NCBI GenBank assembly: GCA_945861465.1
Contig: CAMAVB010000007.1
Coordinates: forward strand, 1-64,000
DNA: 64,000 bases
Direction of reading: 5' to 3'
Origin: Candidatus Kuenenia stuttgartensis
GTDB lineage: Bacteria > Planctomycetota > Planctomycetia > Planctomycetales > Planctomycetaceae
Numbering within the stretch: the stretch's first letter is position 1; each line of letters opens with the position of its first letter. The position numbers were made by a program, and so were the translations under genes. Under the pieces are notes generated by a model. It was not told the origin of the DNA. It did no database searches and saw only the letters and a list, made by a program, of their open reading frames with translations. This document shows positions 27,193 through 28,793 of the stretch, one piece after another.

Positions 27193-27224
27193 TCATGATG
27201 TCGCCGGATCATTGGACGGTACAA
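27000..27224 (-). CDS. Small SEC-C motif protein (possible gene remnant)
   Basis: A frame of up to 74 residues ends in APCPCNSGRKYKFCCWARDR, a clean SEC-C zinc-binding motif (CxC...CC), as found at the end of SecA and many small proteins. The residues before it are low-complexity (QSSPSQSSPSS, caused by a tandem duplication) and do not look conserved. The frame overlaps the 3' end of the enolase-superfamily gene by 32 bp. It may start internally (27179), or be the last part of a decayed larger gene. Confidence 0.45.
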   Translation of the reverse strand: MYRPMIRRHHELFPRMHRERSADRFQSSPSQSSPSSRFDPGTTSTEKYPGMERCAPCPCNSGRKYKFCCWARDR

Positions 27225-28506
27225 TGATGTCCAGCGTCCTCACTGCCAGTTCGCGAACCCGGCATTCTTTTACGTCGCTGGACAATCCGGAGCCGTGCAG
27301 TCGCGGTCCCTTGCCTCCGTAGTGGAACGTCAGATCCTGTTCCGTGAGCGATTCGCGGACCAGAAAACGATCAAAGCTACCTTCCAGATATCGAATGTCC
27401 GGCACGTTGCAGGCGAAGTGGCGGCCGGCGGCAGAGAGAATCCCCGTCTCACCAACCTGACACCCCAGTTGATAACCGATGCCATGCTGACGCGCCAATG
27501 CGACGAGTTCAAGTGACCGCGATATCCCGCCGCATTTGGAAAGCCGAATATTGAACAAATCACACCATTGGCCAACGATTGCACGCTCGGCGTCTTCCCG
27601 GCAGCACAGGGATTCGTCGAGCATGATGGGGACGTGGATTTCCGATCGTACCTGCCTGAGCCCCGCCACTTCACGATGCGGGACTGGTTGTTCGAGGCTG
27701 GTTGGCAGAAATGGCATCAGCGGAGCAATTTTTGAAGCCACTTCATCGCAATACCATGCTTCATTTGCATCCAGTCGCAGGTTCACTTTGCGTCCGACAA
27801 TCCTCCGCACACGTCGCAGCAAATCAACGTCACTGATGCCATCGGCGCCTACCTTGACTTTCACCTGACGAAACGCAAACAACTTCATTTTTAATGCCGA
27901 GATCCACTGACCTCGCGGCGTCATGGAAGTGATTGCACCGCTGTAGAAAACCTCATTGACCGGTCTGCCCTGGACTTGCCGGAACGCGCTAGCGTTCGGT
28001 TCGTCTGGTCTTTCGGGAGACCGTGGGCTAGCGCCCGGCGGCTGATGTATTGATCTATTCTCAACGGTCGCTTGCCTCAAGGCGGGATGTTGCAGAATGA
28101 AATCGCCCAGACTGATCTGATCTGCACGGCACGCGGCATCAAGGATCGCGAGTTCCAGTGCACACCGGACGGAGTTGCCGAAACTTTCGCGAACGTCGAT
28201 GCCCTCATCAGCCGCCACATCTGCGAATCGAAAGTCATCGATCGCAAGGCTGGCATCGGAGGCACAGGAAAACGTGGCATCGCGGAGCGGTGTAAAGTCG
28301 GTCTGTTCCAGATGCCGCCAGACGGAATCCATTGATTCGCCCGTCACATACGGTCGCGGCAGCCCTTCGCCCCAGCCGCAGCTTCCGTCGTCCATTACGC
28401 AGCGCAGGATGAGCGTTTCGTTTGCTCGACGTTCGTGCGATGCATGGCGCACGGGCTTCCTCAAGGCGATGGGAATCTGAAATGCGGTAAGACGATGAAT
28501 TCGCAT
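27193..28506 (-). CDS. Enolase-superfamily enzyme (mandelate racemase/muconate lactonizing type) with palindrome insertion
   Basis: A 437-residue cytoplasmic enzyme. The capping domain begins MRIHRLTAFQIPIALRKPV with GWGEGLPRPYVTGES. The barrel then shows the catalytic KxK (QVKVKVGAD), metal ligands LRLDANEAWY, LEQPV and IMLDESL, and the final base Lys in IRLSKCGGI, so all key residues of the MLE/dipeptide-epimerase subgroup are present. Between the capping domain and VNEVFYSGAITS lies a Pro/Ser/Arg-rich stretch of about 28 residues (GASPRSPERPDEPNAS). Its DNA is a palindromic repeat inserted in frame (27975-28055). The substrate may be a muconate-like lactone, an O-succinylbenzoate-type compound or a dipeptide. 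Confidence 0.88.
   Translation of the reverse strand: MRIHRLTAFQIPIALRKPVRHASHERRANETLILRCVMDDGSCGWGEGLPRPYVTGESMDSVWRHLEQTDFTPLRDATFSCASDASLAIDDFRFADVAADEGIDVRESFGNSVRCALELAILDAACRADQISLGDFILQHPALRQATVENRSIHQPPGASPRSPERPDEPNASAFRQVQGRPVNEVFYSGAITSMTPRGQWISALKMKLFAFRQVKVKVGADGISDVDLLRRVRRIVGRKVNLRLDANEAWYCDEVASKIAPLMPFLPTSLEQPVPHREVAGLRQVRSEIHVPIMLDESLCCREDAERAIVGQWCDLFNIRLSKCGGISRSLELVALARQHGIGYQLGCQVGETGILSAAGRHFACNVPDIRYLEGSFDRFLVRESLTEQDLTFHYGGKGPRLHGSGLSSDVKECRVRELAVRTLDIIVPSNDPATS
27975..28055. repeat. In-frame palindromic repeat inside the enolase-superfamily gene
   Basis: Two GCTAGC-centred palindromes (GAACGCGCTAGCGTTCGG near 27982, and CCGTGGGCTAGCGCCCGG from 28021) flank GGTCTTTCGGGAGACC, a small hairpin. 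Reading through in the gene's frame adds a hydrophilic Pro/Arg/Ser segment and no stop. Confidence 0.65.
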
Positions 28507-28599
28507 AGGCTCAAGCCGACTTGAATTCGGCGAATATGTTACAACTTGCCCGGATGGTGAAAGCGATGGTGGGCTAGTGCGTTGTCCAACGTGCTTTGA

Positions 28600-28665
28600 T
28601 GTGTGCCACTGGCTCTGCCAGTGTTCTCCATTCGCATGAAACACTGGCGGAGCCAGTGGCACACA
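28600..28665. repeat. TGTGTGCCACTGGC inverted repeat, copy 1
   Basis: Arms TGTGTGCCACTGGCTCTGCC... (28600-28625) and the near-complement 28640-28665 form a 26-bp hairpin with a 14-nt loop. A second copy is at 39166-39231. It fills most of the divergent region between the enolase-superfamily gene (-) and the hydrolase gene (+). Confidence 0.85.
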
Positions 28666-28793
28666 GACCATCAATACATCACTGACAAAGCACTGGCAGA
28701 CGACACCCCCCACGGATTTGTCCCACCATCTAATTCACCAACGGCACGAGGCCGTTGAGGTCGACAGTTAAACAGTCGAACTAAGGACTCTAC

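Follow-up and report, generated by a model that had tools for sequence, protein, structure and literature searches.

A REP/REPIN-like hairpin repeat, very probably inserted in frame, in the linker of an enolase-superfamily gene of a planctomycete

In the window (the whole 64,000-nt stretch of Candidatus Kuenenia stuttgartensis DNA that was analysed), a copy of a dispersed REP/REPIN-like repeat has, in all likelihood, jumped into the variable linker of an enolase-superfamily gene, with the frame kept, after the species split from its nearest sampled relatives, and has been tolerated there as a disordered loop. In the mechanism that we propose, a repeat copy made of two inverted 29-nt hairpin units would have entered the linker between the capping domain and the barrel in frame. 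It would persist there through a length that keeps the frame, a reading frame that avoids the TAG within GCTAGC, and a Pro/Ser/Arg-rich peptide that would remain a disordered surface loop. The locus permits a clean comparison of before and after: here the enzyme gene is intact and has the palindrome inserted, and in two close relatives it is free of it.

The host gene and its insert

The host gene (27193..28506, minus strand; ATG at 28506, stop at 27193) is a 437-aa ORF of the MLE / dipeptide-epimerase-like type. Its product matches Pfam MR_MLE_C at 6.8e-40, its sequence is closest, among proteins of solved structure, to L-Ala-D/L-Glu and other dipeptide epimerases, and the folds closest to its model are those of N-succinylamino acid racemase and dipeptide epimerase (PDB 2p88, 3q45, 3jva and 1jpm; TM 0.76 by query length for 2p88). 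The residues expected of the MLE subgroup of the enolase superfamily are all present, as the preliminary description had claimed for the catalytic ones: the KxK motif (K216/K218), the metal ligands D246, E272 and D297, and the second catalytic lysine, K324, each invariant or nearly so among orthologues. The host enzyme has its fold and catalytic residues in common with the racemase and epimerase structures listed above, but it alone is predicted to have an extra disordered linker.

The insert consists of a 29-nt hairpin repeat present twice, in inverted orientation, and its tightest boundaries are 27978-28047. The left half-unit, a REP-like hairpin at 28019..28047 on the minus strand, is full length and of the GGGC:GCCC stem type (covariance-model match 1-29, 43.1 bits, E 5.9e-8). 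The right half-unit, at 27978..28001 on the plus strand, has the inverted orientation and the ACGC:GCGT stem type (match 6-29, 30 bits, E 3.6e-4), and its outer ATCA end is degenerate. The 17-nt spacer between them (28002..28018, minus strand) contains most of a small hairpin, GGTCT-TTCGGG-AGACC, which sits between two GCTAGC-centred palindromes at about 27986-27996 and 28025-28036. The palindromes and the hairpin, in frame in an enolase-superfamily ORF, are as first described. Whether modelled as DNA or as RNA, the 72-nt core folds better than 199 of its 200 dinucleotide shuffles.

The altered stretch extends beyond these units. Judging from the codon alignment and from the points at which blastn alignments with L193, L192 and L194 break, 27952..28081 (minus strand) stands where the collinear locus of the orthologues has about 30 bp; within it, 27970..28067 (minus strand) codes for the insert that pLDDT marks as low-confidence and probably disordered, at about residues 147-179. 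The preliminary description, which had put an insert of about 28 residues at 27975-28055, was right about its location and about the presence of an added peptide, but gave too short a length for both the stretch and the peptide, which comes to about 33-34 residues.

Effect on the enzyme

With the linker left out, dN/dS between the host gene and its two nearest orthologues is 0.14-0.15, vs 0.12 between those two, and lineage-specific replacements number 15 in the host and 13 in the nearest relative. Judged by these comparisons, ordinary purifying selection acts on the insert-bearing host gene; the ratios and relative rates also rule out a pseudogene. The AlphaFold2 model of the host protein (64 orthologues) has a mean pLDDT of 91, with values of 55/50/54 across residues 151-180 and above 90 further out on both sides. 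The low-confidence insert falls between the last helix of the capping domain (141-149) and the first strand of the barrel (185-187), so that structure prediction, as anticipated, renders it as a disordered excursion at the junction of the two. The simplest reading of the model is that the insert is a tolerated, disordered surface excursion, and we infer that it is near-neutral for enzyme activity.

The insert could instead have been recruited, with a role for its peptide or its mRNA hairpin in, for example, protein contact, substrate access or translation pausing. Such a role would be in keeping with the purifying selection that persists on the gene and with the folding of the RNA form of the core (z -2.97). 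However, that fold is accounted for by the element's own hairpins, and the insert is predicted to be disordered, is missing in all orthologues and has no sign of constraint on itself; its right arm has started to degenerate. We therefore consider recruitment very unlikely. Between the two outcomes that had been left side by side in the preliminary description, the evidence is for tolerance, and none was found for recruitment.

Absence from orthologues

As expected of an insertion, the element is missing in all 80 named planctomycete orthologues and also in 27 whole-genome relatives, a set that overlaps the 80. The linker between capping domain and barrel has 47 residues in the host vs 12-23 in the orthologues. 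By blastn, the locus is collinear with those of the two nearest orthologues (L193 and L192, 86-87% identical to the host) on both sides, reaching the upstream neighbours. Between the alignment breaks the window has 130 bp and the nearest relative 31 bp; the net gain is about 100 bp, or about 34 codons, and keeps the frame, and about 30 bp beyond the core are also new. Exact junctions and any target-site duplication are unreadable here because the linker is hypervariable. On these alignments, the best explanation would be that the repeat arrived after the species' split from its nearest sampled relatives.

A chimeric gene, formed when two stretches were joined at a repeat copy during assembly, would be a different account of the same locus. 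The genome (G000, 8.2 Mb) is a draft of 474 contigs, and assemblers can be misled by short repeats. Nevertheless, in two relatives a single collinear locus aligns with both halves of the gene and with its upstream neighbours at comparable identity (86% and 89% for the protein on the two sides), and the reading frame runs on through the join, which makes an artefact highly improbable.

Two orthologous enolase genes contain another in-frame repeat, of the SQISDLKSQI type, located at the same linker in L214 (gene 1501-2700) and in the capping domain in L241 (gene 1501-2784). Their peptides, SQISDLKSQI and DLKSEISDLKSQISD, derive from a AAATCTCAGATTTG-type repeat, which fits with enolase loops accepting repeat DNA. 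Between the host gene and the upstream hydrolase gene, about 230 bp (28551-28782) take the place of about 36 bp in both nearest relatives; this stretch contains an almost perfect inverted repeat (TGTGTGCCACTGGCTCTGCCAGTGTT / AACACTGGCGGAGCCAGTGGCACACA) and resembles a further palindromic insertion, of MITE type.

A dispersed family of hairpin repeats

The consensus of the unit is ATCAG-[CCGnnnnGC GYTA GCnnnCGG]-TT, 29 nt with an 8-pair stem. Searched with blastn, the same genome yielded 49 matches to the element, and the pattern CAGCCGNNNNGCGYTAGC gave 71 matches vs 0 for a reversed control. A covariance model, with which 150 of 7156 candidates were scored, found about 110 units across the genome at E<0.01, a number that is accordingly a minimum. 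Grouped together, model and pattern matches define 97 sites, most of them outside genes or long open frames. The suggestion that the stretch belongs to a dispersed repeat with copies elsewhere in the genome, mainly outside genes, is thus borne out.

All 34 oppositely oriented pairs are inverted, with the ATCAG ends outward and spacers of 2-25 nt. Pairing is kept in three stem types (ACGC:GCGT, GGGC:GCCC and GTGC:GCAC): 92.5% of stem cells are paired, vs 82.1% when shuffled and 27-38% when slid. Two-sided changes are seen in 31 stem cells, with covariation at columns 12-23 and 13-22, and we regard the hairpin as the conserved feature because its stem covaries. In the conserved flank (ATCAG/CTGAT), CAG is invariant and AT at least 90% conserved among 30 distinct units. 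The pattern is present, patchily, in 19 of 59 related planctomycete genomes, with 77 and 26 matches in two genomes of the same genus (G029 and G011), and the element had no match in the plasmid collection.

Ordinary expansion of the linker, with palindromes arising by chance and no repeat involved, has next to no likelihood: linker length does vary somewhat (12-23 residues in orthologues), but the genome counts refute it, one half-unit alone reaches an E of 5.9e-8, and the two units have the family's invariable inverted arrangement.

The paired hairpin core also forms the centre of longer elements, at least three of them, whose terminal repeats are unrelated and of the types AGTGCTCTGTCAAG (L013, L016, L020, L118), TATACTGCACGCGG (L029, L030, L093) and TAAGGACCG (L003, L008, L011), as though several MITE families had acquired a single hairpin module. 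At other loci (L010, L021, L023, L024, L025), copies break off at the central CTAG and continue into the ends of other repeats (TGTTGATTTAGT, CTGTTAAAAATC), a structure suggestive of CTAG-targeting mobile elements that use the palindrome as an insertion site. The copies in G029 (L302-L338) often have extended outer arms in common, TTCGGGTTGTGA-ATCAGCC ... GGCTGAT-TTCACAACCCGAA, which makes the full element in that genome a longer palindrome.

Copies in other genes

Four of the 34 pairs in the same genome lie in frame inside genes: the enolase, a polyketide synthase (C43, between KS and AT), a PSCyt2/PSD1 protein (C33) and a DndB-like gene (C382). The PSCyt2/PSD1 copy falls in a variable linker, with a net gain of 25 codons, and relatives at 90% and 80% identity are without the element. 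The DndB-like gene is the weakest case because the family model misses its N-terminal part. The direction of reading is the same in all four pairs, and their right arm encodes P-D/N-A-S/N-A-F-R. We saw no clear mid-gene disruption in this genome, and some copies lie at the 3′ ends of genes; since the search favours open frames, we claim no statistic on disruptions. None of the 42 pairs checked in G029 and G011 lies clearly within a recognised domain-bearing gene. The long open frames at G029 pairs look antisense, and in one of the ten frames tested (in G029) Pfam domains were found, all on one side of the element.

More tentatively, this untagged planctomycete REPIN-like family may repeatedly donate the P-D/N-A-S/N-A-F-R peptide to unrelated linkers, making coding palindromes a recurrent source of linkers in the phylum, a generalization that we hold to be possible rather than probable. 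If true, recurrent coding palindromes would not be peculiar to Rickettsia or Opitutus.

Inferred mobilisation

Because the stem covaries and the units pair in inverted orientation, we infer that the repeat arrived by hairpin mobilisation, perhaps in single-stranded form, along the lines suggested for REPs. A RAYT as the mobiliser is unsupported: the genome has 19 Y1_Tnp matches, none of the 12 of their loci that were checked is near a repeat copy, and 1 of 30 Y1_Tnp loci in relatives is. That one (L187, 2012-2160, genome G020), the sole tested Y1_Tnp locus with repeat units nearby (two of them), is a possible lead to a mobiliser.

The flanks of the 34 pairs have no consistent target-site duplication (L012 alone has a possible GCCAC pair), and neither do those of the bare cores, among them the one in the window. 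Elsewhere the core is embedded in longer elements that have terminal inverted repeats. The bare core does not pass as a MITE, which would combine terminal inverted repeats with a target-site duplication.

Comparison with known systems

The family has the features of REP/REPIN (BIME-type) elements, namely a hairpin palindrome of 20-40 nt, dispersed and mainly extragenic copies, and inverted pairing. As in the REPIN / RAYT system (Bertels and Rainey 2011, PMC3116915), the dispersed unit is two inverted REP hairpins, but among 12 Y1_Tnp loci in the same genome and 30 in relatives we found no RAYT gene flanked by the ATCAG repeat. Intragenic GTAG- and CGTC-tagged REPs have been described in several bacteria, one of them Opitutus terrae, a member of the PVC superphylum (Di Nocera et al. 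2013, PMC3733652); many of their intragenic copies are dimers that encode 20-30 aa, argued to lie in flexible linkers or loops (PMC3733652). The tagged REPs and the ATCAG family are both 20-40 nt hairpins, often inverted dimers and mostly extragenic. They differ in that the flank here is ATCAG: the GTAG/CGTC tetranucleotide that defines those superfamilies (PMC3733652) is missing from our 30 distinct units, and the GCTAGC core does not occur in the main text of that paper. We found no description of the ATCAG hairpin family in the open-access literature. In-frame intragenic REPs as such are already known, and the repeat family itself appears to be undescribed so far; it adds a hairpin-repeat family without known tags or an identified mobiliser.

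A close parallel in behaviour is that drawn in the preliminary description, to the Rickettsia palindromic elements (RPE; Ogata et al. 2000, 2002, as related in passages of PMC3733652 and PMC10969869), which are in-frame palindromic repeats inside unrelated protein genes. The parallel holds for behaviour, since the ATCAG family is likewise a dispersed palindromic repeat in frame in several unrelated genes. The first RPEs were about 150 bp long and nearly half were intragenic, whereas the ATCAG element is an inverted dimer of 60-80 bp with 4 of 34 pairs intragenic and in frame. With these further in-frame copies in the same genome, the question of whether coding palindromes are tolerated or recruited becomes directly testable in free-living bacteria.
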